A program made the translations under genes and the position numbers. Under the pieces are notes generated by a model that saw only the letters and a list, made by a program, of their open reading frames with translations, was not told where the DNA came from and searched no databases. A stretch of 64,000 bases of DNA from Shinella granuli. GTDB lineage: Bacteria > Pseudomonadota > Alphaproteobacteria > Rhizobiales > Rhizobiaceae. The DNA is taken from contig NZ_SLVX01000017.1 of NCBI RefSeq assembly GCF_004341885.1, forward strand, positions 1 through 64,000. The letters run 5' to 3'. Positions 2 to 17,168 of this stretch are shown in pieces. The first letter of the stretch is position 1. Every line of letters starts with the position of its first letter.

Positions 2-97
2 GGCATCGAGAACCCGCTCTTCTACAAGGACAACACCCGCATGTTCTATGGAGATGCAAAGAAGAGCATCGATCAGTTGTTGCCGGCACTGGCGTGA
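2..97 (+). CDS. C-terminal end of an amidohydrolase-like protein (partial)
   Basis: The last 31 codons of a plus-strand gene enter from the left edge and end at a TGA. The peptide contains [18 protein letters not shown], which resembles the end of amidohydrolase-2 (ACMSD-like TIM barrel) proteins, where a closing stretch such as N-A-R-R-L-Y precedes a short helix. The catalytic part lies outside the window, so the assignment is weak. It runs convergent to the serine hydrolase gene next to it and may belong to the same catabolic locus. Confidence 0.4.
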
Positions 98-142
98 ATC
101 GGTGAATGGGGCGATGTGGACGGGCGCGGTCTGGCTTCGTTG

Positions 143-1330
143 CTAGCCTCGGTAGGCCGCATCCCGTATCGCGCCGGGAAATCGACCGCTGGTGCCTTCG
201 AAGGCGGTGTTGGTCAGCGCGACGACGGTCAGTCGTTCCGTCGGATCCAGGAAGAAGCTGTGGCCGTAGGCCCCGCCCCATTGAACGGTGCCCGGTCGTT
301 GCGGTGTGTCGGCAAGCGGGTCGGAGAGCACTGCCCAGCCGTAACCGAAGCCCCAGCCCGGCCCTTGCGTCCCGACCCCGGGCCCGACATGGTCGCGCAT
401 CATCATCCGGATCGTCTCGTCCCGCAGGATCGGTTTTCCACCCGTGCGGATCGCCTCCATGAACCGGAGAATGTCATGGGCCGTGCCGATCATGCCCGCG
501 CCGCCGGAGGGGAAGGCTTTGGCAGAAAAGGCGCGCGAGGGAGAGAAACGGACGACCCCGTCGATCTTTCCCGGATGTCCCGTGGCACGAATGGCAGGTC
601 CACCCAAAACGGCAATCTGCTCTTGCGTGAGGGCAAGCGCGATGCCGTCATGCATGCGGACCGGTCCGGCAGGACCGCCTGCATAGGGCGTGACGAGCCT
701 CTGGCCGGCCGCGGCGGTGAAGCGGGTCTGAAGCATTCCGAGCGGCTGCGTCACCAGTTCGGCGACGATATCGGGCAAGCTGTCGCCCGTTACCCGGCAG
801 AGCACGGCACCAAGGACATCGATGCCCAGCGAGTATCGCCACGATGTGCCGGGCTTGAAGGCAAGCGGCAGTTGCGCCAGCCGGTCGACGTTCTCCGCAA
901 GGGTCAGCTCCAGCCCGTCGAGACCATCCGAAACACCGGCCGTGTGCCAGGGACTGCCCGTCGGCTCCAGATAGGAATGCGACAGGCCGCTCGTATGGGT
1001 CAGAAGCTGATGGATGGAGATGTCCGGCCGGCTGCCGTCAGGGCAGGGCGGACGGAATTCCGGCAGCCAGCGGCTTACGGCGTCATGAAGGCCGAGCGCG
1101 CCTTTTTCGACGAGGCGCAGGGCCGCCGCCGTGACGATGGACTTGGAGACGGACGCAAGGCGGAAGACGGCATCGTCCCGCATGGGTATGCGGGCTTCGC
1201 GGTCGGCGAAACCCGCGGCGCGCGCGTAGACGGGCTGTCCGGCGCGGCTGACGAGAACGACCGCGCCGACGATCCGGCCGGCCGCGAGCGCGCCTTCAAG
1301 GGCGCTATCGAGGGCGGTGAGCGATGCCAT
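143..1330 (-). CDS. Serine hydrolase, beta-lactamase/esterase EstB family
   Basis: This 395-residue protein has the class C beta-lactamase fold signatures. The S-V-S-K nucleophile motif is at residues 60-63, and a Tyr-Ser (W-R-Y-S) near 166 takes the place of the Y-x-N motif. A G-G-A-Y-G-H stretch near the C terminus corresponds to the third box. QLLTHTSGL near residue 108 is typical of the EstB/6-aminohexanoate-dimer hydrolase group. No signal peptide is evident, so a cytoplasmic esterase or amidase role is more likely than antibiotic resistance. It lies 54 bases downstream of the double-SnoaL gene on the same strand and probably shares its LacI-controlled promoter. The substrate is unknown. 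Confidence 0.85.
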   Translation of the reverse strand: MASLTALDSALEGALAAGRIVGAVVLVSRAGQPVYARAAGFADREARIPMRDDAVFRLASVSKSIVTAAALRLVEKGALGLHDAVSRWLPEFRPPCPDGSRPDISIHQLLTHTSGLSHSYLEPTGSPWHTAGVSDGLDGLELTLAENVDRLAQLPLAFKPGTSWRYSLGIDVLGAVLCRVTGDSLPDIVAELVTQPLGMLQTRFTAAAGQRLVTPYAGGPAGPVRMHDGIALALTQEQIAVLGGPAIRATGHPGKIDGVVRFSPSRAFSAKAFPSGGAGMIGTAHDILRFMEAIRTGGKPILRDETIRMMMRDHVGPGVGTQGPGWGFGYGWAVLSDPLADTPQRPGTVQWGGAYGHSFFLDPTERLTVVALTNTAFEGTSGRFPGAIRDAAYRG

Positions 1331-1384
1331 GGCACTATCCGACAGGGATGCCGGCCCGCTTTGCAGCGAGCCGGACCGTTGGTT

Positions 1385-2590
1385 TCAGGAAAAGAGCTGG
1401 GTCAGGACGCCGAACTCGTTGAAGACGGTCCATTCCTTCTGGATCCTGCCCTTGTCGATCGCCCATTGGCTGATGCCCCAGAGGTTCACCTGCTTGCCGG
1501 TCGGCTCGCCATAGGGGCCGAAACCGCGATGGGTGCCGACGGCGCTCCAGCGGATCGAGACGACGTAGCCTTCCCGGGCATTGCCCATCCAGTAGACGTC
1601 GTCGACATTCATGGCGAGATCGGGGAACATGGCGACGATCGACAGCAGGAAGGACCGGATCTGGCCCGCGCCGCGATAGACGCGCCCGGTCGAGCCCTGC
1701 ATGACGACGTTCGGCCCGTAGATATTGTCGATGGCGCCGAAGTTGCGCCGGTTCCAGACCGTATGGAAGGCAGCCCTGACGAAGCCTTCCAGGTCGTCCT
1801 CGACCGAGGGGAGCGTCATCTCGGCCGGTTTGCCCTGGCCGGGAAGCCGCTTCGGTTCGCCCGCCAGGAAATTCGACGGCAATGCGGCGCCTGCCCTTGC
1901 GGCGGCAAAACGCCTGGCGGTCTCGACGACATCGATGCCGAGCTGCTGCAGCAGACCCGCGGTGTCGTAGATGACATGCTCGTGAAAGATCTCGTTCGCC
2001 CGCGCCACGCAATTGGCCATGCACCAGAGCTGCACGCGCCTGCCCGTCGGCGCGCCGAAGCGGCTGTAGCCGGTGTTCGTGCCGAGGATCTTCGTGCGGT
2101 GCGACGTATGGAAACCAACATCCTCGTTGCCCGCCCAGACGACCTCGTCGGCCACGAGGCGGATATCGGGGAAGGCGTTGTTGGTATGCACCGTATCGGC
2201 CACGATCTTGTCGCGGCCGTATTGCAGCCCGATGTCGTCCCACACGGTGCAGTCGTGGCTGTAGGTGTCGTAGATGTAGCCGATGTCCTTCTCTTCCCAG
2301 ATGCGGTGGGTGATCCGCACGATGTAGTCGACGATGTTGACATAGGTGGGATCGAAGCCCCGCATCGGATGGGAAGCGAGCCCCTGCGGGGCCTTGCCGA
2401 TGAAGTTGTCCGTCCCGCCCCGGCGATAGGCATCGAGCGAGATCGAGAAGTCTTTCGGCATGTGCTCCCTGGCGAGCGCTTCGAACTGGACGCGCGATGA
2501 TTCCTGCGCGCGGTCCGGTGCGGGATTCGATTTCGGCTTGTTGCCCGCGGTCGCTTCGGCAGGCAGGCGGTCTTGGGTTGTTGCTGTCAT
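1385..2590 (-). CDS. Double SnoaL-like (NTF2-fold) protein, paralog 1
   Basis: The protein has 401 residues from an ATG at 2590, preceded by GGAGGT. A longer reading to 2710 would run through the operator and is rejected. It has two NTF2/SnoaL halves: the first carries D-Y-I-V-R-I-T-H-R-I-W and C-T-V-W, and the second (after about residue 250) ends with W-A-I-D-K-G-R-I-Q-K-E-W, the typical closing strand of the SnoaL fold. SnoaL relatives include polyketide cyclases and small-ring isomerases or hydrolases, so the reaction is open. A paralog at 7114-8208 sits inside the ABC transporter operon. A LacI-type palindrome lies 14 bases upstream of the start. Confidence 0.8.
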   Translation of the reverse strand: MTATTQDRLPAEATAGNKPKSNPAPDRAQESSRVQFEALAREHMPKDFSISLDAYRRGGTDNFIGKAPQGLASHPMRGFDPTYVNIVDYIVRITHRIWEEKDIGYIYDTYSHDCTVWDDIGLQYGRDKIVADTVHTNNAFPDIRLVADEVVWAGNEDVGFHTSHRTKILGTNTGYSRFGAPTGRRVQLWCMANCVARANEIFHEHVIYDTAGLLQQLGIDVVETARRFAAARAGAALPSNFLAGEPKRLPGQGKPAEMTLPSVEDDLEGFVRAAFHTVWNRRNFGAIDNIYGPNVVMQGSTGRVYRGAGQIRSFLLSIVAMFPDLAMNVDDVYWMGNAREGYVVSIRWSAVGTHRGFGPYGEPTGKQVNLWGISQWAIDKGRIQKEWTVFNEFGVLTQLFS

Positions 2591-2604
2591 GTGAACCTCC
2601 ATTC

Positions 2605-2616
2605 GCATACGTATGC
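2605..2616. promoter_or_regulatory. LacI-type operator, perfect palindrome
   Basis: GCATACGTATGC is a perfect 12-bp palindrome with the central CG typical of LacI-family operators. It is immediately upstream of the ribosome-binding site of the minus-strand double-SnoaL gene and faces the divergent lacI gene. A second half-site (CGAATGC, 2622-2628) follows 12 bases away centre to centre. The same word recurs at 3848, 3874 and 10611. Confidence 0.75.
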
Positions 2617-2791
2617 TAGCACGAATGCGAATGTTGGCAATGGCGGGGTCGCGAATTCTTTTTCCGCCGTGAGCCCTGGCCTGGAGCTTTTTGCCGGGGC
2701 GGGCGGGCACGGCCGATCAGATCCGCTTGCCTAAAGGGGACCGCGGGTCCTATGTCTTCCCGCAGGGAAATGCCGCGAAGGGTTGATCGAT

Positions 2792-3826
2792 ATGAAGAAA
2801 AGGCGTGTGACATCCACCGATGTGGCCCGGAAGGCGGGTGTGTCGCAGTCGGCCGTCAGTCGCACGTTTTCGCCTTGGCCGACGCAGTCCGGCGTGTCTG
2901 CAGAGATCAGGGAAAAAGTTCTGCGGGCCGCAAAGGAGCTTGGCTACCAGCCGAATGCGATTGCGAGGTCGCTTATAACCCAAAGGTCCAGGATCGTCGG
3001 CGTGCTGTTCAGTTATCTCGACAATCCGTTCTACGCGCGGGCCCTGGAGCTGCTGTGCCACGGCCTGCAGGCAAGGGGCTACCACGCTCTCGTCTTCATG
3101 ATGTCGGACACGCTACAGGATATCGATTCCACCGTATCCGATATCCTGCAATATCAGGTCGATGGGCTTCTGACCGCTTCCGTCGAGCTTTCTTCCAAGC
3201 TGTGCATCGAGTGTACCGAGCGGGGAATCCCCGTCGTGATGTTCAACCGAACCCAGGACGACCCGGGCTTGTCGGCCGTGACCACCGACAATATCGGTGG
3301 CGGACGACTGGCTGCGAAGGCTCTTCTCGATGCCGGCTGCGAGCGGCTCGCGGTGCTGGCGGGATGGGAGGGCGCCTCGACAAGCCGCGATCGGGAGTTC
3401 GGCTTCCGGGCGGAGCTGCACGCGCGGGGTGCGGAGCTTTTCGAGCGGGCAAACGGCAACTTCAATCTTGAAGACACCGCGCAGGCGACGCGAGCCTTTT
3501 TCAAGGATCGGAACCCGGCGGAGCGACCCGACGCCCTGTTCGTGATCAACGACTATATGGCGATCCGGGCGATGGACGTGATCCGCAATGAGCTGGGCCT
3601 GCGCATTCCCGAGGATGTCAGCGTCGTCGGCTTCGACGATATCTCGACGGCGGCGCAGCCGACCTATGGGTTGACCACCGTGCGCCAGCCGATCAACCGG
3701 ATGGTCGAGGCCAGCCTGCGCCTGCTTTTCGAGCAGATCGAGGATTCCGCTGCTCAGCCCGAGCATGTGATGCTTGGCGCCCAACTGGTAGAGCGCCATT
3801 CGGTTCGCCGCAAATCCTCCCCTTGA
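2792..3826 (+). CDS. LacI-family transcriptional regulator, paralog 1
   Basis: This 344-residue repressor starts at the ATG at 2792, with GAAGGG upstream; an in-frame TTG at 2783 is less likely. The N-terminal helix-turn-helix reads T-S-T-D-V-A-R-K-A-G-V-S-Q-S-A-V-S-R, followed by the hinge-helix region (L-G-Y-Q-P-N-A-I-A-R-S-L) and a periplasmic-binding-protein-like effector domain ending with the VPEDVSVVGFDD-like motif. The recognition helix is identical to that of the second LacI protein (9534-10562), but this copy has about three extra residues (SPWPTQSG) just after it. It is divergent from the SnoaL operon and upstream of the ABC transporter, whose promoters carry matching palindromes. 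Confidence 0.93.
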   Translation: MKKRRVTSTDVARKAGVSQSAVSRTFSPWPTQSGVSAEIREKVLRAAKELGYQPNAIARSLITQRSRIVGVLFSYLDNPFYARALELLCHGLQARGYHALVFMMSDTLQDIDSTVSDILQYQVDGLLTASVELSSKLCIECTERGIPVVMFNRTQDDPGLSAVTTDNIGGGRLAAKALLDAGCERLAVLAGWEGASTSRDREFGFRAELHARGAELFERANGNFNLEDTAQATRAFFKDRNPAERPDALFVINDYMAIRAMDVIRNELGLRIPEDVSVVGFDDISTAAQPTYGLTTVRQPINRMVEASLRLLFEQIEDSAAQPEHVMLGAQLVERHSVRRKSSP

Positions 3827-3847
3827 ATTTTTCTTCGAACGGATATT

Positions 3848-3859
3848 GCATTCGTATGC
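3848..3859. promoter_or_regulatory. LacI-type operator, copy A upstream of the ABC operon
   Basis: GCATTCGTATGC differs by one base from the perfect palindrome GCATACGTATGC. It is centred at 3853/3854, about 67 bases before the start codon of the solute-binding protein gene. A second copy is centred 26 bases downstream. Confidence 0.75.
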
Positions 3860-3873
3860 AAAAAAGGTATCTT

Positions 3874-3885
3874 GCATACGAATGC
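3874..3885. promoter_or_regulatory. LacI-type operator, copy B upstream of the ABC operon
   Basis: GCATACGAATGC is the exact reverse complement of copy A at 3848-3859. The two sites flank TATGCAAAAAAGGTAT, where the promoter core probably lies. Paired sites suggest cooperative binding of one or both LacI paralogs. Confidence 0.75.
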
Positions 3886-3920
3886 GAGGAGCATTCCAAT
3901 TCTTCAGAGGGAGTTTGAGC

Positions 3921-5249
3921 ATGATCACGAGAAGGCAGATGCTGCAGGGTGGCGTTGGTGCTGCTGCCGCCATGACATTTGGAATACCTCGCGGAGTGTC
4001 CGCACAAATCCTCCCCGGCAAGCCGTTTGCGGGCTCCGTCGTCAATATTCTCCTGCCCCATGCCTCTCAGTTCCGCGCCCATGAAAAGCGCTTTGCCGAA
4101 TTCGAGGAGCTGACCGGTATCAAGGCCGTCTACAATTATGTTCCTTACGCGCAGGTGCGCGACAAGATCGCCGCGGAAGCCGTGGCCGGCAGCTCCAACT
4201 ATGATGTCGTCTGTTACCAGGATAGCTGGGGGCCGTCGCTTTCGCTCTATCTGGAGCCGATCGACGCCTGGCTGGCGCGCGACGGCGTCGACATGAACAG
4301 CTATCCGCAGGCCTACAAGCTCGGCAGCGAGATCGGCGGCAAGGTCTTCGGCCTGCCGATCCGCGGCCATCCGCAGATGCTTTTCTACCGCAAGGACCTG
4401 CTCGCCGAAGCCGGCGTCGAGCCGCCGGCGACCTGGGAAGACCTCGTAACGGCCGCTAAGGCGGTTCAGGACAAGTCCGGTGTCTCCGGCCTCGCCATGT
4501 ACTACGGCAAGGGCAACGGACAGCAGAACCTCTTCCTCTGGCTGAACTATCTCTGGGGCAAGGGCGGCGATCTCTTCACGCCGGACTTCACGGAGACGCG
4601 CTTCACCGAGCCGGTCGCGATCGAGGCGACGCAGATGTATCTCGATCTTCTGCTGAAGCACAAGGTCGCGGCGCCCGGCTCGGTGCAGTTCGCCGAGGAC
4701 GATGCGGTCAATTCCGTCGCCCAGGGCAAGTCCGCGATGGTCATGGTCTGGTGGTGGGTCTATTCGGTGCTTACCAGCGACAAGTCGACGTTGAAGGCCG
4801 ACCAGATCGGCTTTGCGCCCATGCCGAAATTTGCCGGCGGCAGCCCGGTTTCCTATGCGCTTTCCCTGCCGTTTGCCGTCAGCGCGCTGTCGAAGCAGAA
4901 GGATGCGGCCTGGGAGTTCATGAAGTGGGTTTCCCGGCCGGAGCTGGAGCAGGCCTGCGTCATCGACAAGTCCAATCCCGATACGTCGGATATCGTCGTC
5001 ACGCATACGGCCAGCTTCCTGGATCCGAAGGTCAACGACGCCAATTTCGGCCTGCACCGGGTCGCGGCACAGAGCCTCGAAGGCTCCCGCATCATGCCGC
5101 AGCTGAAGGAATGGCCGCAGATCGGCACGACGCTCGAAAACACCATCTCGGATCTGGCGACGGGGGCGAAACCCGTCAAGGACGGGCTCGATGAAGCCGC
5201 GCGCGACATCGACCGCATCCTGCGCCGCGCCGGTTACCGCAAGGGCTGA
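3921..5249 (+). CDS. ABC transporter solute-binding protein, carbohydrate family (family 1)
   Basis: This 442-residue periplasmic binding protein starts at the ATG at 3921, behind an AGAGGGAG ribosome-binding site. A longer reading from 3846 would translate both operators and is rejected. The N terminus has a Tat-like twin-arginine signal (T-R-R-Q-M-L-Q) followed by an Ala/Gly-rich segment and a V-S-A-Q cleavage region. The body resembles UgpB/MalE-type proteins (L-P-I-R-G-H-P-Q-M-L-F-Y-R-K-D-L and W-E-F-M-K-W). It is first in an operon with two permeases, a SnoaL protein and an ATPase. The ligand is unknown; family 1 proteins mostly bind sugars or polyols. Confidence 0.92.
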   Translation: MITRRQMLQGGVGAAAAMTFGIPRGVSAQILPGKPFAGSVVNILLPHASQFRAHEKRFAEFEELTGIKAVYNYVPYAQVRDKIAAEAVAGSSNYDVVCYQDSWGPSLSLYLEPIDAWLARDGVDMNSYPQAYKLGSEIGGKVFGLPIRGHPQMLFYRKDLLAEAGVEPPATWEDLVTAAKAVQDKSGVSGLAMYYGKGNGQQNLFLWLNYLWGKGGDLFTPDFTETRFTEPVAIEATQMYLDLLLKHKVAAPGSVQFAEDDAVNSVAQGKSAMVMVWWWVYSVLTSDKSTLKADQIGFAPMPKFAGGSPVSYALSLPFAVSALSKQKDAAWEFMKWVSRPELEQACVIDKSNPDTSDIVVTHTASFLDPKVNDANFGLHRVAAQSLEGSRIMPQLKEWPQIGTTLENTISDLATGAKPVKDGLDEAARDIDRILRRAGYRKG

Positions 5250-5267
5250 GGCCCGTTGCGCTCTCTT

Positions 5268-5302
5268 CCTGCGGCGGGCCGGGAACCTGTCGCCGCCGCA
5301 GG
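5268..5302 (+). repeat. Stem-loop between binding-protein and permease genes
   Basis: CCTGCGGCGG (5268-5277) and CCGCCGCAGG (5293-5302) form a perfect 10-bp inverted repeat around a 15-base loop, with no U tract. Similar hairpins after binding-protein genes often protect the upstream mRNA and lower expression of the downstream permeases. That role is inferred here. Confidence 0.6.
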
Positions 5303-5397
5303 TCGATAATGTCGCGGAAGGCCCGACTGGAGGCGTCGATTGCTTTGCAACCGGTGGCGACGGGCCGACGATGGAACCGCAAAGAGGAGCTGTTCAC

Positions 5398-6276
5398 TTG
5401 GTGGACAAACATCTGAAATATTGGCTTGTGGCGCCCGCCCTGATCATCATGGCGATGACGCTGCTTTACCCGCTCGTTGCCGGGTTCTGGTTCTCGCTGC
5501 ACAACTGGAACATCGCCCAGGAAGCGACGCTCGGTCCCTTTGTCGGGCTGGACAATTATCGGCTCATTCTCACCGATGACCCCGACTTCTGGGGCAGCGT
5601 TCGGGTGACCGGCATCTTCACCGTCTTTTCCGTGGTGATCACCCTGGTGCTGGCGATGGCGCTGGCGCTGGCGCTGCTGCTGGTGGGCAATGACGGTCTT
5701 ACCGTCAATGTCCGCACACTGCTGGTGCTGCCGTTCTCCATGTCGCCGGCGCTGCTCGGCATATCCTGGCGCTTTCTGCTCAATCCGGAATTCGGCGCCA
5801 TTTCCGCCGGGCTCGGGGCTATCATCCCTGCGTTGAAAGGTGTTCCCATCCTTGCCGATCCGACCCTGGCGATGGCGGCGCTCATCGCCTCGGACGTCTG
5901 GCACTGGTCGCCCTATTTCATGCTGCTGTTCGTGGGCGCTCTTGCCGCCCTGCCGCAGGAGACGATCGAAGCGGCCCAGGTCGATGGCGCCTCGCGGTTC
6001 CGCGTGTTCTGGGAAATCATGCTGCCGCAGTTGCGGCCGGTGCTGACGATCGCGATCCTGCTCAAGGCGATCTTCTCGCTCAAGGTGCTCGATCAGGTGG
6101 TCACGCTCACGGCGGGCGGCCCCGGCACGGCGACCGAAACGCTTGCGCATCTCGTCTACCTCACGGCTTTCCGGTTCTACGACCTCGGCTATTCCGCCGC
6201 GATCGCCTACCTGCTGGCCGCGGTCATGGGGGTCCTGGCCCTTCTCTACACCCGGTTCGTTATGGAGCGCGCGTGA
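5398..6276 (+). CDS. ABC transporter permease, sugar type (MalF-like)
   Basis: This is an inner-membrane permease of 292 residues from a TTG at 5398, which has AGGAG eight bases upstream; a GTG at 5401 and an ATG at 5371 are alternatives. It has about six hydrophobic segments. The cytoplasmic EAA loop that docks the ATPase is E-A-A-Q-V-D-G-A-S-R-F-R-V-F-W. The TAGGPG-like motif near the end is typical of MalF/UgpA proteins. It is followed two bases later by the second permease. Confidence 0.92.
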   Translation: MVDKHLKYWLVAPALIIMAMTLLYPLVAGFWFSLHNWNIAQEATLGPFVGLDNYRLILTDDPDFWGSVRVTGIFTVFSVVITLVLAMALALALLLVGNDGLTVNVRTLLVLPFSMSPALLGISWRFLLNPEFGAISAGLGAIIPALKGVPILADPTLAMAALIASDVWHWSPYFMLLFVGALAALPQETIEAAQVDGASRFRVFWEIMLPQLRPVLTIAILLKAIFSLKVLDQVVTLTAGGPGTATETLAHLVYLTAFRFYDLGYSAAIAYLLAAVMGVLALLYTRFVMERA

Positions 6277-6277
6277 T

Positions 6278-7105
6278 ATGAACGTTCGGTCAAAACACAG
6301 GCTTGCCAAGGCTGCGCGCTACGTCGCCCTTGCAGTCGTCGTGCTGATTTTCTTCGGGCCGATCGCCTGGATCCTCGCGACGGCGTTCAAGAGTGCGCCG
6401 GACGTGTACTCGCTGAAGATCTTCTTCACGCCGACCCTCCAGAACATCCGCGATTCCTTCGCCACCCCGTTCCTCGTCGGCGAAAGAACATGGAACAGCA
6501 TCGTCGTGACGTTCTGCACGCTCGTCTTCTCGCTGCCGATCGCGACGGCTGCGGCCTATGCCTTTTCCCGCTTCCGCTTTCCGGGCGGCAGCATCTGGCC
6601 GATCGGCGTGCTGGCAACGCAGTTCATCCCGCCGGTCGTCGTCATCATCCCGCTCTTCATCGTCTTCCGGCAGGTCAACCTGCTGGACACCAGGACGGCG
6701 CTGGTCATCGCCAACATGTCCTTCGTCGTGCCCTATGCGATCTGGATGATCAAAGGCTTCATCGACAGCATACCGATGGACATGGAGGAAGCCGCCCAGA
6801 TCGACGGCGCGTCCCGCCTCAGGGCGATCTGGGACGTCGTCGTTCCCGTCGCCCTCCCGGGCATCGCGACGGCGGCGATCTTCTGTTTCGTCGTCTCCTG
6901 GAACGAGTTCTTCTATGCGCTCGTGCTGACGCAGCAGGATGCGACCACGATGCAGGTCGGTCTGATGAGCGCCCGCACGGAACGCGGCGACGTCTGGGAG
7001 ATCATGGCTGCGATGGGCCTTGTCATCATCCTGCCGATGCTGGTCCTCTCCCGCTTCGTTCAGAAATATTTCACCAAGGGCCTGATGTCAGGCTCGGTCA
7101 GATAG
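6278..7105 (+). CDS. ABC transporter permease, sugar type (MalG-like)
   Basis: The second permease has 275 residues and starts at an ATG one base after the TGA of the first. Its EAA loop reads E-E-A-A-Q-I-D-G-A-S-R-L-R-A-I-W. The C terminus (Q-K-Y-F-T-K-G-L-M-S-G-S-V-R) is the closing signature of MalG/UgpE-type permeases. It should form the heterodimeric channel with the upstream permease and be energised by the ATPase encoded at 8212-9294. Confidence 0.93.
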   Translation: MNVRSKHRLAKAARYVALAVVVLIFFGPIAWILATAFKSAPDVYSLKIFFTPTLQNIRDSFATPFLVGERTWNSIVVTFCTLVFSLPIATAAAYAFSRFRFPGGSIWPIGVLATQFIPPVVVIIPLFIVFRQVNLLDTRTALVIANMSFVVPYAIWMIKGFIDSIPMDMEEAAQIDGASRLRAIWDVVVPVALPGIATAAIFCFVVSWNEFFYALVLTQQDATTMQVGLMSARTERGDVWEIMAAMGLVIILPMLVLSRFVQKYFTKGLMSGSVR

Positions 7106-7113
7106 GACGCAAT

Positions 7114-8208
7114 ATGCCTACGCCCGTATCACCAAGGATAAGCCAGGTTCGGCACGTCCCCATCGAGAAGCTGCTGAAGCCGGTCGAGCGCGGTTCGTTC
7201 CCGATGGACGGTTTCGACGACGACTTCGGCGATATCGTCGACTACATCTTCAAGATCACCCACTGGATCTGGGCCGACCGAGCCGTTGGGCAGATCTATG
7301 ACTATTATGCCGAGAACTGCACGGTCTATACCGGCTTCGACGTCACCCGTTCCGTGGAGGATGTCGTCACCGGCACGCTCTCCATGCTGCAGTCGTTCCC
7401 CGATCGCGAGATGGATTTCATCAACGTCGCATGGAGCGGTGATCCGAAGGAGGGATATTACACCAGCCATCTCGGCTTCTCGCGCATGACCAATCTCGGT
7501 CCTTCGTCCTATGGTCCGACGACCGGAAGAGCCTCGCGTTTCTTCACGATCGCGGACTGTGTCTCGCGCGACAACCAGATTTTCCTGGAATGGCTGATCC
7601 GCGACAACGGCGCGGTCGCAAAGCAGCTCGGTGTCGATATCCACGAATTGGCAAGAAGGCTTGCGCAGGACGATGCCCGGCAGGGCAGGAAACCCTGGTT
7701 TGCCGACACGCTGGAGAGCTTGCCGGCCGTGCGCAGCCCGCGCCAGCCGGCCCCGCTGGACCGTCCGAAAAAGAGCCTGGAAGACCGTCTGCGGCACACG
7801 TTGCACGATGCCTGGAACCGGCGTCTCCTGAACGTGCTGCATGATTTCTACGATCCTGATGTCGTCGGGCATCTTGCCGGCGGGCGTGAAATCGCCGGCA
7901 AGGACGGGCTGATCTACCACTATGTGCAACTGCTCGCCGCCATTCCGGATGCGGAATTCTCGTTCGACCATTACTGCGATGTCGTCGAAACGGATGGCGT
8001 GCTTGCGGCGGTCCGCTGGTCGATCACGGGGCATCACAGGGGCGACGGCCTGTTCGGCGCGCCGAGCGGCAAGCCGGTCTATGTGCTGGGAATGTCCCAT
8101 TTCCGGTTCGAGGGAGAGAACGTGGTCGAGGAGTGGACGCTCTATGACGAGCTTTCGATCCTGCGACAGATTTATGCCGAGCCGGCAACGGCCGACGGGG
8201 AGGAATAA
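7114..8208 (+). CDS. Double SnoaL-like (NTF2-fold) protein, paralog 2
   Basis: This 364-residue protein is a clear paralog of the one at 1385-2590. The shared core is D-I-V-D-Y-I-F-K-I-T-H-W-I-W in the first half, and the second half ends with E-N-V-V-E-E-W-T-L-Y-D-E-L. Both halves look like NTF2/SnoaL domains, joined by a linker rich in Pro and charged residues around residues 205-235. The gene is inserted between the second permease (8-base gap) and the ATPase (3-base gap) of the ABC operon, which implies expression with import and action on the imported compound. The reaction is unknown. Confidence 0.8.
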   Translation: MPTPVSPRISQVRHVPIEKLLKPVERGSFPMDGFDDDFGDIVDYIFKITHWIWADRAVGQIYDYYAENCTVYTGFDVTRSVEDVVTGTLSMLQSFPDREMDFINVAWSGDPKEGYYTSHLGFSRMTNLGPSSYGPTTGRASRFFTIADCVSRDNQIFLEWLIRDNGAVAKQLGVDIHELARRLAQDDARQGRKPWFADTLESLPAVRSPRQPAPLDRPKKSLEDRLRHTLHDAWNRRLLNVLHDFYDPDVVGHLAGGREIAGKDGLIYHYVQLLAAIPDAEFSFDHYCDVVETDGVLAAVRWSITGHHRGDGLFGAPSGKPVYVLGMSHFRFEGENVVEEWTLYDELSILRQIYAEPATADGEE

Positions 8209-8211
8209 CCT

Positions 8212-9294
8212 TTGGCATCTGTAACACTGAAAAACGTGGCCAAGCGCTTTGGTCATTTCACGGCGCTCGAGCAACTGGACCTTTCCATCGGCGATGGCGA
8301 GTTCCTCGTCCTGCTTGGCCCCTCCGGCTGCGGCAAGACGACCACGATGCGCATGGTCGCGGGCCTGGAATACCCGTCGAGCGGCGAGATCCGGATCGGG
8401 GATCGCCTCGTCAACGAGGTGCAGCCGAAAGAGCGCGACGTCGCGATGGTCTTCCAGAACTACGGCCTCTATCCGCATATGAGTGTCGAGCAGAACATCG
8501 CCTATCCGCTGAAGGTCCGGGGCATCGGGAAGACCGATCGCGCGGCAAGGGTAAGGGCGGCGGCCGACAAGGTGGAGCTCGGGCCGTTGCTGGCCCGCAA
8601 GCCGCGGGAGCTTTCGGGCGGCCAGCGCCAGCGCGTTGCCCTGGCGCGTGCCATCGTGCGCACGCCGCAGGTGTTCCTGATGGACGAGCCGCTGTCCAAC
8701 CTCGACGCCAAGCTGCGCGTGACCATGCGGGCCGAGATCAAGCACCTGCAGCATGAGCTGGGCGTGACCACGATCTACGTGACGCACGACCAGATCGAGG
8801 CGATGACGCTTGCCGATCGGGTTGCGGTGATGAACGAGGGCCGCATCCAGCAATTGGGCACGCCCGCGGAAATCTACGACACGCCGGCCAATCTTTTCGT
8901 TGCCGGCTTCATCGGCTCCCCGCCGATGAACCTGATCCCCGGTGCGGTTTCCGGCGGTACGTTCAAGGCGACGGATGTCTCCGTCACCCATCCGGATTTC
9001 GGTGCCGACGGCGCCGGCATTCTGGGGATACGGCCCGAGGATATCGAGGTCGTCGATCCGCAGGTGGCAGGCATCGTCGGCAGCGTCTATGCGGTCGAAC
9101 TCACCGGCGAAGCCAATCTCGTCACGGTCCTGACCGGCACGAGCCGCGTGATCGCCCGCGCGTCCAGGGCCTGGGACGGCAAGATCGGCGACAAGGTCGG
9201 TCTGCGGCCCGATCCGGCGCGGATACATCTCTTTGATCAGCAAACCGGCTTGCGTATCGAACCCCGGCGTGTGCCGGGCGCCGGTAATCACTGA
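8212..9294 (+). CDS. ABC transporter ATP-binding protein (UgpC/MalK type)
   Basis: This 360-residue ATPase starts at a TTG at 8212, placed by GGGGAGGA upstream. It shows Walker A (G-P-S-G-C-G-K-T-T), the signature L-S-G-G-Q-R-Q-R, Walker B with D-E-P-L-S-N-L-D, and the H-loop T-H-D-Q. A C-terminal MalK-like TOBE/regulatory region of about 120 residues follows. It completes the importer, which has one binding protein, two permeases and one ATPase. Confidence 0.94.
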   Translation: MASVTLKNVAKRFGHFTALEQLDLSIGDGEFLVLLGPSGCGKTTTMRMVAGLEYPSSGEIRIGDRLVNEVQPKERDVAMVFQNYGLYPHMSVEQNIAYPLKVRGIGKTDRAARVRAAADKVELGPLLARKPRELSGGQRQRVALARAIVRTPQVFLMDEPLSNLDAKLRVTMRAEIKHLQHELGVTTIYVTHDQIEAMTLADRVAVMNEGRIQQLGTPAEIYDTPANLFVAGFIGSPPMNLIPGAVSGGTFKATDVSVTHPDFGADGAGILGIRPEDIEVVDPQVAGIVGSVYAVELTGEANLVTVLTGTSRVIARASRAWDGKIGDKVGLRPDPARIHLFDQQTGLRIEPRRVPGAGNH

Positions 9295-9309
9295 CAAGGA
9301 AACACGGCC

Positions 9310-9534
9310 ATGGCTCTTACCTATCCCGAACGCGCGAAGACCGGGGCCTGCCGGCTGCCGGAGGCGACATGCGCCAGCCTGGTCTTCAGCGTTTCGGGGA
9401 AGGTGAAAAAGAAGCTTGGGCATCCGTCACGAGGAGGGGACATTGCGGTTTTCGTCCCCTATCGTGCGCGGGATGTCTTTGTGATCGCGGGGAAATCCCG
9501 GCAGATGACGGATGTGAGCGGGGCGGGGAACTGA
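9310..9534 (+). CDS. Small hypothetical protein, translationally coupled to lacI
   Basis: This 74-codon reading frame begins with ATG at 9310 behind an AAGGAAAC sequence, 15 bases after the ATPase stop. Its TGA overlaps the ATG of the second lacI gene (TGATG at 9532-9536). I do not recognise the protein. It is basic, with no clear transmembrane segment. It could be a real small protein, a translated leader for lacI, or chance. The start site and exact coupling are the main support. Confidence 0.35.
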   Translation: MALTYPERAKTGACRLPEATCASLVFSVSGKVKKKLGHPSRGGDIAVFVPYRARDVFVIAGKSRQMTDVSGAGN

Positions 9535-10562
9535 TGGCAAACGAGAAGGTCACGTCGAACGATGTTGCGCGGCTTGCGGGCGTAAGCCAGTCGGCGGTGT
9601 CGCGATACTTCACGCCGGGAACCTCGGTCTCGAAGAAAACGGCTGACAAGATCAAGGCGGCGGCCGAAGAGCTCGGTTATCGTCCGAACGTGCTGGCCCG
9701 CTCGCTGATCACCGGCCGCAGCCGCATTATCGGCCTCGTCGTCGCCTATCTCGAAAACTATTTCTATCCGGAAGTGGTCGAGCGCCTGTCGAAGGCGCTG
9801 CAGGACCAGGGCTATCATGTGCTGGTCTTCATCTCCTCCATCGCCTCGGAAGGGGTCGATCAGATCACGCAGGAGATTCTCGACTATCAGGTCGACGGCA
9901 TCGTGCTCGCCTCCGCAACCATGTCCTCCGAGCTTGCGGCCCGCTGCCATGCGTCCGGCGTGCCGATCGTGCTCTTTAACCGTCTTCAAGACGATGTCAG
10001 GCTTTCGGCCGTCACCTCCGACAATCGTGGCGGGGGCCGGCAGCTCGCCGATCTGCTCGTGTCGCTCGGCCACACCCGTTGCGGCTATATTGCCGGCTTC
10101 GAGGGCGCCTCGACGCAGCGCGACCGGGAACAGGGTTTTCGCGACGGGCTGGAGGCTGCGGGGCTGTCGCTCTTCGCCCGCGAGGTCGGAAACTTCCGTT
10201 ATGAAGAAGCCCAGGCGGCGGCACGGCGCATGTTCGCCGGCGCGGAACGGCCGGATGCCGTCTTCGTCTGCAACGATCATATGGCTTTTGCCGTGATGGA
10301 TGTCCTGCGTTTCGAACTCGGCCTGCGCATTCCCGAGGATGTCTCCGTCGTCGGTTTCGACGACGTGCCGCCGGCGCGCTGGCCGGCCTACAACCTGACG
10401 ACGATCCGCCAGAGCGTCGATGACATGGTCGCCGAGACGGTGGCGATGCTCATGCAAAGCATCAAGCAGGGCGACGGGACTGCGCGCCGCGTCACCCTCG
10501 ACGGCACTCTCGTGGTGCGCGGTTCGACGCGCACAAAAGCTCCAACAGAAGAGACACGCTAA
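9534..10562 (+). CDS. LacI-family transcriptional regulator, paralog 2
   Basis: This 342-residue repressor starts with an ATG that overlaps the preceding stop codon. The helix-turn-helix reads T-S-N-D-V-A-R-L-A-G-V-S-Q-S-A-V-S-R, followed by the L-G-Y-R-P-N hinge and an effector domain. It is similar along its whole length to the LacI protein at 2792-3826 and has the same recognition-helix sequence, so both probably read the same 12-bp palindrome. It sits at the end of the ABC operon and is followed by the operator that controls the cupin gene. Two repressors with one operator word may sense different ligands or form mixed dimers. Confidence 0.93.
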   Translation: MANEKVTSNDVARLAGVSQSAVSRYFTPGTSVSKKTADKIKAAAEELGYRPNVLARSLITGRSRIIGLVVAYLENYFYPEVVERLSKALQDQGYHVLVFISSIASEGVDQITQEILDYQVDGIVLASATMSSELAARCHASGVPIVLFNRLQDDVRLSAVTSDNRGGGRQLADLLVSLGHTRCGYIAGFEGASTQRDREQGFRDGLEAAGLSLFAREVGNFRYEEAQAAARRMFAGAERPDAVFVCNDHMAFAVMDVLRFELGLRIPEDVSVVGFDDVPPARWPAYNLTTIRQSVDDMVAETVAMLMQSIKQGDGTARRVTLDGTLVVRGSTRTKAPTEETR

Positions 10563-10610
10563 CCAAAACGCCCCGGAGGGGACGGACAAGCCGTGCCTGC
10601 AATCCATTTT

Positions 10611-10622
10611 GCATACGTATGA
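10611..10622. promoter_or_regulatory. LacI-type operator upstream of the cupin gene
   Basis: GCATACGTATGA matches the perfect palindrome GCATACGTATGC at 11 of 12 positions. It directly abuts the AAAGGATGAG ribosome-binding region of the cupin gene (start at 10635), so a bound repressor would block the start of the transcript. Confidence 0.7.
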
Positions 10623-10634
10623 AAGGATGAGAGA

Positions 10635-11606
10635 ATGCAAATTTCCCAGACGGAAATGGAAAAACGCATCGTTCGCTATGGTGAACTGAGGCCCTGCCGC
10701 ACCGCGTTCATCGACGCCCATACGCCGGGTTCGAACCAGAAGGAAAACTTCACGATCATCGGCGGCGGCGTTTCGGAAAGCGCCGACCAGCATGTCCATA
10801 TCAAGGACACGCCCGGCTTCAACATCGGCGCGGCGGGCCAGCCGCCGAAATGCCGCAACTCACTGCATTCGCACCGCACGGCCGAAGTGTTCTTCGTGCT
10901 CAAGGGCCGGTGGCGCTTCTTCTGGGGCCGCTGGGGCAATGCCGGCGAGGTCGTGCTGGAAGAGGGTGACATCTTCAACATCCCGACCGGCATCTTCCGT
11001 GGCTTCGAGAACATCGGCACCGACTATGGAATGATCATGGCGATCCTCGGCGGCGACGATGCCGGCGGCGGCGTGATCTGGGCGCCGCAGGTGATCGAGG
11101 ACGCCAAGGATCACGGCCTCGTGCTCGGCGAGAACGGCAAGCTCTATGACAGCAAGAAGGGGCAGACGCTGCCGGATGGCATCAAGCCGATGCCGCTTCT
11201 GACGGAAGAGGAGCTGAAGGCCTTCCCGGAAACGCCGGTGACCGAGGTGGTGCGCGATTACGTCGCCCGCTACTGGGACCTGATGGCGCTGGCGCAGAAG
11301 GCTCCGGCCAAGGTGATCGGCGAAAACGCGCTGCTGCGCGACAAGCCGGGCTTCGAGGTCGAGCTTCTGACCCGCGGCTCCATTCCGGAAACGGCTTATG
11401 TGAACGCGCGTCACGAGGTGCTGATGGTCATGCGCGGCCATTGGAAGCTTACCTGGGACGGCGGCGAATCCGTCCTCGCCCCCGGCGACACCTGCGCCGT
11501 ACCGCCGGGCCTGAAGCACGGCTTGACACCCTCGATGACCGGTGAGGCGAGCCTCTACCGCGTCGTCGCGACCGGCGACGAGGCCGGCTTCACCTGGCGT
11601 GGCTGA
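10635..11606 (+). CDS. Double-cupin domain protein
   Basis: The protein has 323 residues and two cupin barrels. The first (around residues 70-130) has H-S-H-R-T-A-E and a G-D-I-F-N-I-P-x-G motif. The second (around 255-310) has R-H-E-V-L-M-V-M-R-G-H-W and P-P-G-L-K-H-G. Bicupins of this layout include oxygenases, isomerases and decarboxylases, so the reaction cannot be named. The first barrel keeps a His-x-His...Glu metal set; the second has an incomplete one. An 11/12 LacI operator precedes it, and the RraA-like gene follows, which suggests enzymes acting in sequence. Confidence 0.82.
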   Translation: MQISQTEMEKRIVRYGELRPCRTAFIDAHTPGSNQKENFTIIGGGVSESADQHVHIKDTPGFNIGAAGQPPKCRNSLHSHRTAEVFFVLKGRWRFFWGRWGNAGEVVLEEGDIFNIPTGIFRGFENIGTDYGMIMAILGGDDAGGGVIWAPQVIEDAKDHGLVLGENGKLYDSKKGQTLPDGIKPMPLLTEEELKAFPETPVTEVVRDYVARYWDLMALAQKAPAKVIGENALLRDKPGFEVELLTRGSIPETAYVNARHEVLMVMRGHWKLTWDGGESVLAPGDTCAVPPGLKHGLTPSMTGEASLYRVVATGDEAGFTWRG

Positions 11607-11702
11607 AGCGTCCAATGCGGCGGCGAACATGCCGCCGCGTTTTCAATCATTCAACAGGCTCCAGCCCTCCGGCGGGAGCCTGACACATCGGAGGACAGAA
11701 TT

Positions 11703-12398
11703 TTGGACGACGCTCTTCTCACCCTGCTGCGCAAGGTCGACACGCCCACCGTCTGCAACGCGATCGAGGTGGCGCAGGGCAGGCGCGGCTTCAATGCCTT
11801 CACCCGCGGCACGGTGATCTCCTCGGCCCCGACGGCGCCATCGGTTGTCGGCTATGCCCGCACGGCGAAGATCGCCGCCGCCGTTCCTTCAAACGAGGAC
11901 GCGGCTGCCATCAAGACGCGCCGCCGCGATTATTACCGGCACATGGCGGATGGCAGCTCGCCATCGATCGCCGTGATCGAGGATCTGGATTTCCCCCATT
12001 GCGTCGGCGCCTTCTGGGGCGAGATCAACGCCACCGTCCATCGCGGCCTCGGCCTTTCGGGTGTCCTGACCAATGGCGTGATGCGTGATCTCGGCGACGT
12101 GCCCGATGATTTCCCGATGATTGCCGGCTCGATCGGACCGAGCCATGCCTTCGTGCATGTGGAAGCGATCGGTGTGCCGGTCACGGTCTTCGGCATGACG
12201 GTCGCGCCGGGCGATCTCGTTCATGCGGATCGTCACGGCGCCGTCGTGGTCCCGCCCGAGGTCATTCCCGTGCTTGCCGCATCGATCGAGAAACTGCAGG
12301 CGACCGAGCGGCTGATCCTGGAACCTGCTCGACAGGAAGGTTTCGATCTCGCAAAGTTCGAGGAGGCCTGGGCAAATTTCGAGGCAGCCCGAACCTGA
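11703..12398 (+). CDS. RraA-like/HMG aldolase family protein
   Basis: This 231-residue protein starts at TTG 11703, placed by GGAGGA eight bases upstream. It has the RraA-like fold markers, including G-V-L-T-N-G-V-M-R-D, where the Arg and Asp correspond to the active site of 4-hydroxy-4-methyl-2-oxoglutarate aldolase/oxaloacetate decarboxylase. Family members either cleave such oxo-acids or, in the RraA branch, bind RNase E. The catabolic neighbours favour an aldolase or decarboxylase role, yielding pyruvate-level products. Confidence 0.85.
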   Translation: MDDALLTLLRKVDTPTVCNAIEVAQGRRGFNAFTRGTVISSAPTAPSVVGYARTAKIAAAVPSNEDAAAIKTRRRDYYRHMADGSSPSIAVIEDLDFPHCVGAFWGEINATVHRGLGLSGVLTNGVMRDLGDVPDDFPMIAGSIGPSHAFVHVEAIGVPVTVFGMTVAPGDLVHADRHGAVVVPPEVIPVLAASIEKLQATERLILEPARQEGFDLAKFEEAWANFEAART

Positions 12399-12424
12399 CT
12401 CCCTTTGCGCGGCCCGTTTTGGTA

Positions 12425-13180
12425 ATGGAAAAGGCATTCGACACGATGGATGATACCCCGACGACCGGTGACCTGCGGCCGCCGCTCCTGCTGCTGCCGG
12501 GCACGGCCTGCGACCGACGGGTCTTCGCGCCCTTGATCGAAAGGCTCGGCGATTATCCGATCCTGATCGGCGACATGGCTGGCGCGCGGACGATGCCGGA
12601 CCTGGCCGAGATCATTCTTGCGAATGCGCCGCCATATTTCCTGCTCGCGGGCTTCTCGCTGGGCGGAATCTGCGCGCTTGAGATGGTCGCCCGACAACCG
12701 CAGCGGATCGGAGGGCTCGCTCTGATTGACACGACGGCGCGCCCCGATCCGCCGGCCAATGCGGCAGTCCGGCGCAAGGCCGTGGCGGATGCGTACGAGA
12801 AAGGTATGGACGGCTTCATCCTCGATGCCTGGCCTCGGCTGGTGTCTGCGGCCAATGTCGGGGACGAAGCCTTGCGCGACACGATCGTCGCCATGGCGCG
12901 CGATTGTGGCCCCGGCCGGCTCGAAGAGCAGGCGGAAGTCGCAATCCATCGCGCCGACAGCCGCCCGCGGCTCTCCGCCATCACGCAGCCGACACTTGTC
13001 GTTGCCGGCATGCATGAGGCGGTGTGCCCGCCCGATGTCCAAAAAGAGATGGCGGAGGCTATCGCCGCCGCCGAACTTCATTTCATCGCGGATGCCGGCC
13101 ATTTCGCCCCGCTCGAGCAGCCCGACGCGATGGCGCTTCATGTGCAGCGCTGGCTGGCGAGCATCGTGTCGCCCAACTGA
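12425..13180 (+). CDS. Alpha/beta hydrolase
   Basis: This 251-residue protein is read from the ATG at 12425; an ATG at 12446, with GGAAAAGG upstream, is an alternative. The nucleophile elbow is G-F-S-L-G-G, the acid is probably in the A-G-M-H-E-A region, and the catalytic His is in D-A-G-H-F-A-P-L-E-Q-P. This pattern is common in 3-oxoadipate enol-lactonase and MhpC-like enzymes. It is the last gene of the cupin-RraA group and ends convergent to the LysR gene, so it is assigned to the same unidentified pathway. Confidence 0.87.
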   Translation: MEKAFDTMDDTPTTGDLRPPLLLLPGTACDRRVFAPLIERLGDYPILIGDMAGARTMPDLAEIILANAPPYFLLAGFSLGGICALEMVARQPQRIGGLALIDTTARPDPPANAAVRRKAVADAYEKGMDGFILDAWPRLVSAANVGDEALRDTIVAMARDCGPGRLEEQAEVAIHRADSRPRLSAITQPTLVVAGMHEAVCPPDVQKEMAEAIAAAELHFIADAGHFAPLEQPDAMALHVQRWLASIVSPN

Positions 13181-14087: not shown

Positions 14088-14099
14088 GACGGTCGGCCT

Positions 14100-14111
14100 T
14101 CGATAGCTTGA
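14100..14111. promoter_or_regulatory. Candidate LysR box, lysR/nptA intergenic
   Basis: TCGATAGCTTGA sits within TTC-N8-GAA, which fits the T-N11-A LysR pattern. It lies 13 bases beyond the lysR start, between the divergent genes. An 11/12 copy occurs at 15870-15881, upstream of phnW. A further shared word, GAACGATTT, is at 14132-14140. Confidence 0.55.
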
Positions 14112-14202
14112 ATCTATGCATTTATTAAAACGAACGATTTGATTTATGTAAAGCGGGAAAGGATAGTTCGGGGATTTCCACTCTCTTTGCGGAGCGCGCC
14201 TC

Positions 14203-15855: not shown

Positions 15856-15869
15856 ATTCATAATTTTTA

Positions 15870-15881
15870 TCGATAGATTGA
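15870..15881. promoter_or_regulatory. Candidate LysR box upstream of phnW
   Basis: TCGATAGATTGA lies within TATC-N8-GATA and matches the box at 14100-14111 at 11 of 12 positions. GAACGATTT follows at 15889-15897, also shared with the other promoter. The phnW start codon is 77 bases downstream. Confidence 0.55.
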
Positions 15882-15957
15882 TACAAAAGAACGATTTTAC
15901 AGATATGTCTTTCCGCCGCATTGTCGTTTCCGGATAAGCCAAACGTGAGGACGGACC

Positions 15958-17148: not shown

Positions 17149-17168
17149 CGAAGAGAATGGAACCTTCG

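Follow-up and report, generated by a model that had tools for sequence, protein, structure and literature searches.

At the start of a Shinella granuli contig (NZ_SLVX01000017.1, here C17), twelve genes at 143-13180 bring together a carbohydrate-type importer, two double-SnoaL proteins, a bicupin, an RraA-like protein and an alpha/beta hydrolase, and the question they raise is what such a set might break down. The window, i.e., the whole stretch analysed here, is the first 64 kb of C17 in a genome of 6.59 Mb, and its base 1 is the edge of the contig. An earlier note on this DNA knew of no described pathway with these genes, and none was found in the literature that we searched. The reading that we favor, with about even confidence, is that the locus makes up half of a regulon, controlled by LacI proteins, for the catabolism of a small compound resembling a sugar or cyclitol. 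On the side of sequence, it draws on the importer, the two SnoaL proteins, the bicupin, the hydrolase and the RraA-like protein lying behind operator-like palindromes that recur before an operon on a second contig of the same genome (C3).

Gene identities were assigned by Pfam and NCBIfam profile searches. These bear out the earlier note for the importer (a CUT1-type solute-binding protein, two permeases and an ATPase), the two double-NTF2 proteins (PF07366 and PF12680 above cut-off), the serine hydrolase (PF00144), the double cupin, the RraA-like protein and the alpha/beta hydrolase; two LacI-family regulators were absent from that description. The genes run in the order serine hydrolase (minus strand), SnoaL-A (minus strand), LacI1, solute-binding protein, two permeases, SnoaL-B, ATPase, LacI2, bicupin, RraA-like protein and alpha/beta hydrolase. 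The features on which the argument depends are the following:

1385-2590, minus strand: double-SnoaL protein A (SnoaL-A), 401 aa, PF07366 in two stretches; in a clade with Rhizobium lusitanum and this genome's own C3 copy
2603-2618, no strand: putative LacI-type operator TCGCATACGTATGCTA, just before the SnoaL-A start
2783-3826, plus strand: LacI-family regulator 1 (LacI1), PF00356 and PF13377
3846-3861, no strand: putative LacI-type operator TTGCATTCGTATGCAA, palindrome match
3872-3887, no strand: putative LacI-type operator TTGCATACGAATGCGA, palindrome match
3921-5249, plus strand: CUT1 solute-binding protein with a probable twin-arginine signal, PF01547 (E 9.5e-43)
5371-6276, plus strand: ABC permease of the MalF type, PF00528
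6278-7105, plus strand: ABC permease of the MalG type, PF00528
7114-8208, plus strand: double-SnoaL protein B (SnoaL-B), 364 aa, within the transporter operon; PF07366 in two stretches, two repeats in the model
8212-9294, plus strand: ABC ATPase of the MalK/UgpC type, PF00005, OB_MalK and TOBE_2
9534-10562, plus strand: LacI-family regulator 2 (LacI2), the cupin-accompanying copy in relatives, 91-93% to the copies of Agrobacterium, S. medicae and G257 (a relative)
10609-10624, no strand: putative LacI-type operator TTGCATACGTATGAAA, just before the cupin start; 11-base core kept, 12th base differing
10635-11606, plus strand: bicupin, PF07883 in two stretches; 2-His-1-Glu-type site in the N-terminal barrel (H78, H80, E84), and R122
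11703-12398, plus strand: RraA-like aldolase/decarboxylase, PF03737
12419-13180, plus strand: alpha/beta hydrolase, nearest to enol-lactonase/esterase types, PF00561

A rare palindrome links the locus to an operon on a second contig

Palindromes resembling TTGCATWCGWATGCAA stand in three promoter regions of the window, namely those of SnoaL-A/LacI1, of the solute-binding protein and of the cupin. Within the window, their 11-base core is matched 7 times when strands are counted separately (4 sites), where shuffled sequence gives a mean of 0.20, and it has six distinct sites in the whole genome (four at the locus, one at C3:9208 and one at C4:331842) against 1 for a reversed control. The 12-base palindrome GCATWCGWATGC occurs at exactly four sites in the genome, three of them at the locus (in two promoter regions) and one before the C3 operon, with 0 for the reversed control. 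Since the motif was derived from the window sites, C3 is the sole independent match in this genome. The core match at C4:331842 was rejected as a member of the regulon, being asymmetric and having no recognised pathway gene beside it.

The C3 site lies just before the start of a SnoaL gene (9192 of stretch L047, minus strand), which belongs to a run of genes for SnoaL, a solute-binding protein, permeases, an ATPase, a HisD-like enzyme and an SDR, with a divergent LacI gene; C3 itself starts at a contig edge. In Agrobacterium genomosp. 13, a single run holds SnoaL, ATPase, HisD, SDR, LacI, cupin, RraA and alpha/beta hydrolase genes. The DNA similarity of the window to this genome breaks off inside the ATPase gene and picks up again at 9530, where LacI2 lies, and the gap between these two genes in the window holds no remnant of HisD or SDR (best E 0.17). 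Read in this way, the window probably carries one half of a single LacI-controlled regulon, to which the HisD-like and SDR genes of C3, common in relatives but missing from the window locus, also appear to belong.

Across 36 other genomes, 30 of 40 palindrome sites fall within pathway loci and 10 elsewhere, and the reversed control pattern has 5 sites in 37 genomes. The 10 outlying matches, in 10 stretches, were discarded as extra regulon members, there being no pathway-like operon beside them and only weak library matches. The 12-base palindrome is also found in 8 of 24 annotated plasmid loci, including those of Deinococcus, Klebsiella, Novosphingobium and Ensifer NER9. Being rare, the operator could serve to trace the remaining members of the regulon. 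A variant palindrome, TTGAATACGTATTCAA, lies near pathway genes in L093 and L094 (Priestia and Pantoea), suggesting a drifted operator. Beside the C3 operon (L047 9532-14582), we observed a DeoR-type regulator and genes that by eye resemble an FAD glycerol-3-phosphate dehydrogenase and an FGGY kinase; a similar arrangement occurs in genome G236 (L055).

The same genes recur in family relatives and in distant bacteria

Relatives of SnoaL-B were found in 48 of 297 genomes of the same family (this one included, and some of the matches weak or partial) and in 0 of 4 other sampled genomes of the genus, so the locus looks accessory. We compared 50 sources, i.e., the window, 8 further loci and 41 stretches of this and the family genomes, of which 48 have the SnoaL cluster, a count set by construction because loci were chosen with SnoaL-B or the SnoaL family model. 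The recurrent partners in these 48 are the ABC ATPase (40), LacI (38), the cupin (35), the permeases (32 and 31), the HisD-like enzyme (32), the solute-binding protein (30), the alpha/beta hydrolase (28), a MetE-like protein (27), the SDR (26) and RraA (22). Thirteen recurrent clusters have 22-59 members each, the next largest 4.

A second sample was centered on the cupin. Forty loci were fetched (all 28 non-own places of one search and 12 of the 31 non-own places of another), and one without a recognised cupin was dropped; stretch L165 matches library proteins at 100% (L014 being in the library) and is the same or a near-identical locus. Genes in both the cluster and the cupin-sample counts were picked by open frames and BLAST, so that absences are soft. 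The 39 cupin loci have SnoaL (30), HisD-like (28), alpha/beta hydrolase (27), LacI (27), SDR (25), MetE-like (21), RraA (16), HpcH (10), amidase (3) and OtnK (2) genes, both aldolases standing together in 1. This gene arrangement is more than chance: the possibility, raised in the earlier note, that relatives might not keep the genes together is countered by their joint recurrence in family relatives as well as in distant bacteria. In the MetE-like protein (L048 11946-13082, and other loci), H243, C245, E277 and C343, which we take to be the usual zinc ligands, are present in 18 of 18 sequences; one MetE-like query had no match in this genome.

Annotated plasmid records carry versions of the module in Deinococcus, Roseibium, Ruegeria, Priestia, Pantoea, Octadecabacter, Paracoccus, Novosphingobium and Klebsiella; the record for Sinorhizobium K101 is unannotated. 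The Klebsiella locus combines LacI, HisD, SDR, an MFS transporter, the alpha/beta hydrolase, a citrate-lyase-family aldolase and the cupin, with no SnoaL in view. That of Thioclava has MalEFGK, cupin, HpcH, alpha/beta hydrolase, OtnK, OtnC and an OtnI-type protein with no SnoaL, HisD or SDR in view, and the Vibrio and Salinivibrio loci are similar, with TRAP transporters. Ensifer NER9 has OtnK, OtnC, a double SnoaL, LacI and three operator sites, no OtnI being annotated within 56-85 kb of the plasmid. All three loci scanned with the NCBIfam models have OtnK above its equivalog cut-off, and two of the three have OtnC above its own; OtnI exceeds its cut-off in one of two. Salinivibrio is assigned by annotation only. 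Roseomonas has a reduced set, with only the hydrolase, cupin and aldolase in view.

The earlier note had the locus built around its SnoaL proteins, a description that does not hold for Klebsiella, Thioclava, Vibrio and Salinivibrio, which keep the cupin, hydrolase and aldolase with no SnoaL annotated in view. The core seems rather to be the cupin, the hydrolase and a pyruvate-type aldolase (RraA or HpcH/HpaI), with SnoaL often, though not always, present. In a tree of 92 double-SnoaL proteins, grouping is largely by position in the locus. SnoaL-A and SnoaL-B fall in separate well-supported clades, that of SnoaL-B being shared with R. lusitanum, Agrobacterium genomosp. 13, G008 and G031, and therefore do not stem from a recent duplication. 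The AlphaFold2 model of SnoaL-B (mean pLDDT 87.3) has two similar repeats. These proteins resemble the SnoaL polyketide cyclases in matching PF07366 above cut-off and in their fold match to SnoaL-like structures and to the epoxide hydrolase 3rga, but differ in having two repeats per chain, a catabolic context and several paralogues per locus; no polyketide synthase is found among the locus genes or the 13 recurrent clusters of the relatives.

Beyond the Paracoccus alcaliphilus module (L106 21437-24966), we observed a D-cysteine desulfhydrase-type gene, an aminotransferase, a racemase and tauA.

Cupin, aldolase and hydrolase

The cupin residues H78, H80, E84 and R122 are each present in at least 28 of 29 close sequences. 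They are also kept in 12 of 12 diverse cupins (that of the window and 11 distant homologues), two of which are only 207 and 219 residues long, so that the N-terminal barrel is probably the working part. R122 stands at the position where, we presume, a third His is usual.

R128-D129 of the RraA-like protein, which we take as the Arg-Asp active-site pair of the superfamily, is found in at least 19 of 20 sequences. With PF03737 and this pair, the protein has both features of the 4-carboxy-4-hydroxy-2-oxoadipate (CHA)/HMG aldolases of the RraA superfamily, and it reaches 38.8 bits against a cut-off of 304.5 bits for the LigK/PcmE equivalog TIGR02798. S80 and H228 of the alpha/beta hydrolase recur in at least 23 of 24 sequences, and the PcaD-type NCBIfam matches of this protein lie under cut-off.

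RraA and HpcH/HpaI are different folds, both of which cleave 4-hydroxy-2-oxo acids, and their interchange in the module therefore indicates cleavage of such an acid. The late oxo-acid cleavage proposed in the earlier note for the RraA-like protein is strengthened by this interchange and by the OtnK/OtnC neighbors. Since OtnK acts, by its model name, on 3-oxo-tetronate, the second product of the aldolase is plausibly a four-carbon keto acid. In some bacteria, the 3-oxo-tetronate kinase OtnK and the decarboxylase OtnC replace the dehydrogenase pair of HisD-like enzyme and SDR, which suggests that the aldolase releases such an acid. The OtnI/OtnK/OtnC acid-sugar pathway, leading from 3-oxo-tetronate to dihydroxyacetone phosphate, stands beside the same cupin-hydrolase-HpcH module in Thioclava, Vibrio and Salinivibrio, with OtnK and OtnC in Ensifer NER9. 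It differs from the window version, in which the C4 step would apparently fall to the HisD-like enzyme and SDR; OtnK is absent from the window locus and was not sought in the rest of the genome. HisD-like and OtnK genes stand together in 0 of 39 cupin loci. Two genomes (G673 and G675) have a HisD/RraA locus plus a separate OtnK locus, as would be expected of two versions whose substrates are related yet distinct.

The HisD-like enzyme and its possible substrate class

The nearest solved relative of the HisD-like enzyme is HpsN (E 2.4e-119), and the protein lies above the generic TIGR00069 cut-off. According to one source (PMC11382572), HpsN recognises sulfonate through His126 and Lys353, its recognition motif is G-R-Y-A/S-H, ending in His126, and HisD has a motif of the G-S-A-P-L type. 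The HpsN motif with a His126 equivalent is present in 0 of 35 HisD-like sequences, the C3 copy included, GKFPM or variants standing in its place. The Lys353 equivalent is found in 29 of 29 parsed sequences of the 35 (6 of 35, and 4 of 30, were unparsed for this lysine), whereas the histidinol dehydrogenase 4g07 has Tyr there. Alignment of the G008 protein with 8v35 and 8wwe matches all four of the catalytic Glu318, His319 and Asp352 and the sulfonate-binding Lys353, and the strict pattern SEH occurs in 25 of the 35. Neither the G-S-A-P-L-type motif nor the Tyr after GD seen in 4g07 is found in the HisD-like enzyme.

The replaced His126, the retained lysine and the Tyr of 4g07 in its place would fit an anionic substrate that is neither histidinol nor sulfonate. 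We propose 3,4-dihydroxybutanoate, the carboxylate counterpart of dihydroxypropanesulfonate (DHPS); together with the SDR, the enzyme would then link 4-hydroxy-3-oxobutanoate to malate. The arrangement recalls DHPS oxidation by HpsN/HpsO, with a HisD-fold enzyme near an SDR and the Lys353 equivalent kept. It departs from it in having G-K-F-P-M or a variant without the final His for G-R-Y-A/S-H, and in the addition of cupin, hydrolase, aldolase and SnoaL.

Further HisD-like genes were seen in other settings. A second one on contig C10 of this genome (L109, 63500-83499), 65% to the G008 copy, accompanies a MalEFGK-type importer, two GMC-type oxidoreductases and a thiamine-diphosphate-type enzyme (by eye), perhaps a related pathway. 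On R. johnstonii pRL8 (L101), pntAB follows a HisD-like gene, and the annotation in view includes neither a cupin nor a SnoaL protein. Antarctobacter (L102) and Sulfitobacter (L103) have small gene sets (LacI, TAXI-TRAP transporter, HisD-like enzyme, SDR and aldolase) that look like a stand-alone C4-acid route.

A proposed pathway

In the scheme that we propose, the compound would enter via MalEFGK-type importers. The solute-binding protein of the window has trehalose/maltose-binding 1eu8 as its nearest solved structure, with SmoF ranked fourth, and reaches 20 bits against TAT_signal, under the cut-off of 22.7. The SnoaL proteins would trim or rearrange ring substituents, differing between loci as the substrates differ; the cupin, most likely as an Fe(II) dioxygenase, would open or isomerise the ring; and the alpha/beta hydrolase would cut the resulting ester or lactone. 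The RraA aldolase, or HpcH/HpaI elsewhere, would split a 4-hydroxy-2-oxo acid into pyruvate and a four-carbon keto acid, which the SDR would reduce and the HisD-like enzyme would oxidise at its terminal CH2OH to a carboxylate, as for example from 4-hydroxy-3-oxobutanoate via 3,4-dihydroxybutanoate to malate. Elsewhere, a hydroxylated C4 keto acid (3-oxo-tetronate) would pass through OtnK/OtnC to dihydroxyacetone phosphate.

Several points weigh against this reading. The enzyme activities and operator binding are putative, the order of the steps is our reconstruction, and the SDR may run in either direction within the scheme. The cupin could be an isomerase, the His of its second motif being Arg (R122), and its structural model is poor (pLDDT 57). 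Cupriavidus N-1 and Rhodococcus koreensis have cupin homologues (32% over 61% and 53% of the query) with no module of this kind around them. Nor is the exact operator found everywhere, being absent from 16 of 37 genomes and from 16 of the 24 annotated plasmid loci, including those of Thioclava, Vibrio, Salinivibrio, Octadecabacter and Paracoccus. Neither HisD nor OtnK was recognised in 9 of the 39 cupin loci, and neither aldolase in 14, owing to crude gene calling or as a real feature; the mutual exclusion of HisD-SDR and OtnK rests on only 2 OtnK loci in that sample. The MetE-like protein (21/39) and the amidase (3/39) have no assigned role in the scheme.

Candidate substrates and competing explanations

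A narrower version of this reading, which we regard as speculative and unlikely, makes the locus a bacterial pathway for natural sunscreens, i.e., mycosporines, mycosporine-like amino acids and gadusols. 4-Deoxygadusol and gadusol have the ring skeleton that would yield pyruvate with 4-hydroxy-3-oxobutanoate or 3-oxo-tetronate by way of a tertiary carbinol carrying CH2OH; the fit is a chemical one. SnoaL, with the amidase in some loci, would remove the amino-acid arms to give 4-deoxygadusol. Cleavage of the methoxy-enone ring would then fall to the cupin, removal of the methyl ester to the hydrolase and the cut at the tertiary carbinol to the aldolase. The products from 4-deoxygadusol would be pyruvate and 4-hydroxy-3-oxobutanoate, the latter taken by the SDR and then the HisD-like enzyme to malate, and those from gadusol, with one extra hydroxyl, pyruvate and 3-oxo-tetronate, the named substrate of OtnK, so that both the SDR/HisD-like and the OtnK/OtnC branches would follow from one ring chemistry. 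Vibrio harveyi can hydrolyse the amino-acid arms of shinorine and porphyra-334 to give mycosporine-glycine and 4-deoxygadusol, as reported in a review (PMC3083659); our literature searches turned up no gene set for further breakdown.

It is likewise unlikely that the HisD-like enzyme acts before the aldolase, oxidising the CH2OH on the tertiary carbinol to yield CHA, which RraA would cleave to pyruvate and oxaloacetate as in gallate degradation. The RraA family does include CHA aldolases (the NCBIfam LigK/PcmE match lying under cut-off), and the HisD-like enzyme keeps its anion-binding lysine; yet the SDR would be left without a role, though 25 of the 39 cupin loci carry it and 28 the HisD-like gene, and the replacement of the pair by OtnK/OtnC would go unexplained. 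The 4,5-cleavage of gallate and protocatechuate shares the logic of ring opening followed by a class II pyruvate aldolase of the RraA family, but the present locus has no LigAB-type dioxygenase among its genes, has instead a CUT1 importer and LacI, and its aldolase lies below the LigK cut-off.

Ascorbate, common in plants and algae, leads to another, quite unlikely, scheme: the cupin would cleave an enediol such as ascorbate, the hydrolase would free threonate from oxalyl-threonate, and the C4 acid would be processed via HisD-like/SDR or OtnI/K/C. By their model names, the latter belong to four-carbon acid-sugar breakdown, and threonate is a product of ascorbate according to PMC12540250, but the conserved aldolase would have no role, and no threonate dehydrogenase is annotated in the viewed Thioclava, Vibrio and Salinivibrio stretches.

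Very unlikely is an ordinary sugar operon, with an importer and loosely associated enzymes serving no single pathway. CUT1 importers and LacI regulators are common and the accessory genes vary among loci, but promoters on two contigs share one rare palindrome, and the cupin-centered sample shows the same enzymes again, as do Deinococcus, Bacillota and Gammaproteobacteria.

Least probable is degradation of a DHPS-type sulfonate through an HpsN enzyme, for which speak HpsN as the nearest solved HisD-like relative, SmoF among the nearest solved solute-binding proteins, and, some 7-10 kb beyond the Paracoccus alcaliphilus module, tauA and a gene annotated as D-cysteine desulfhydrase, a label that may also be attached to cysteate lyases of the CuyA type. 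We lowered this reading on account of the missing motif ending in His126 (as given in PMC11382572), absent in 35 of 35, and raised it slightly again for the Paracoccus neighbors; in addition, no SuyAB-type lyase or Xsc is named in the other viewed annotated plasmid tables, in which no search was aimed at such genes.

Edges of the locus

Two further features lie between the contig edge and SnoaL-A:

2-97, plus strand: C-terminal tail of PntB (NAD(P) transhydrogenase beta), cut by the contig edge; match to pRL8 PntB
143-1330, minus strand: serine hydrolase, an EstB-type esterase of the class C beta-lactamase fold, PF00144 (E 9.3e-69); accessory

The amidohydrolase-like end of the earlier description proves to be this PntB tail, a 31-residue frame with 68% over 28 residues (E 1.8e-19) to residues 447-474 of the 479 of Rhizobium johnstonii pRL8 PntB; it is not clearly a member of the system. 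PntAB as a general neighbor was dropped, as R. lusitanum has other genes upstream of the serine hydrolase (sequences compared by eye). The serine hydrolase matches the esterase structures 7atl (E 3.7e-108) and 1ci8 (E 5.8e-108), and is not core, since a close homologue occurs in 1 of 56 neighborhood loci (R. lusitanum); the annotations around the Roseibium and Vibrio loci do include other serine hydrolases.

On the other side, an aminoethylphosphonate locus (13212-18431) adjoins the regulon, with a LysR above the TIGR03339 cut-off, a Na/Pi cotransporter, a PhnW-like class V aminotransferase and a member of the PhnA-like phosphodiesterase family. A link to it was set aside, as LysR, PhnW and PhnA have no tblastn match at E 1e-20 in the 56 loci and the cotransporter has 1, and it probably lies outside the system. 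The locus of Ruegeria THAF33, too, is followed by a Na/Pi cotransporter (38% identical).

Significance

A module with this spread, from rhizobia and roseobacters to other Proteobacteria of sea and soil, Deinococcus and Bacillota, probably acts on a natural compound that is itself widespread. Its elucidation would assign functions to the double-NTF2 proteins of catabolism, a third subfamily of HisD-like enzymes and the bicupin family. If the sunscreen proposal is true, what becomes of a major class of UV-absorbing natural products would be open to genetic tests.

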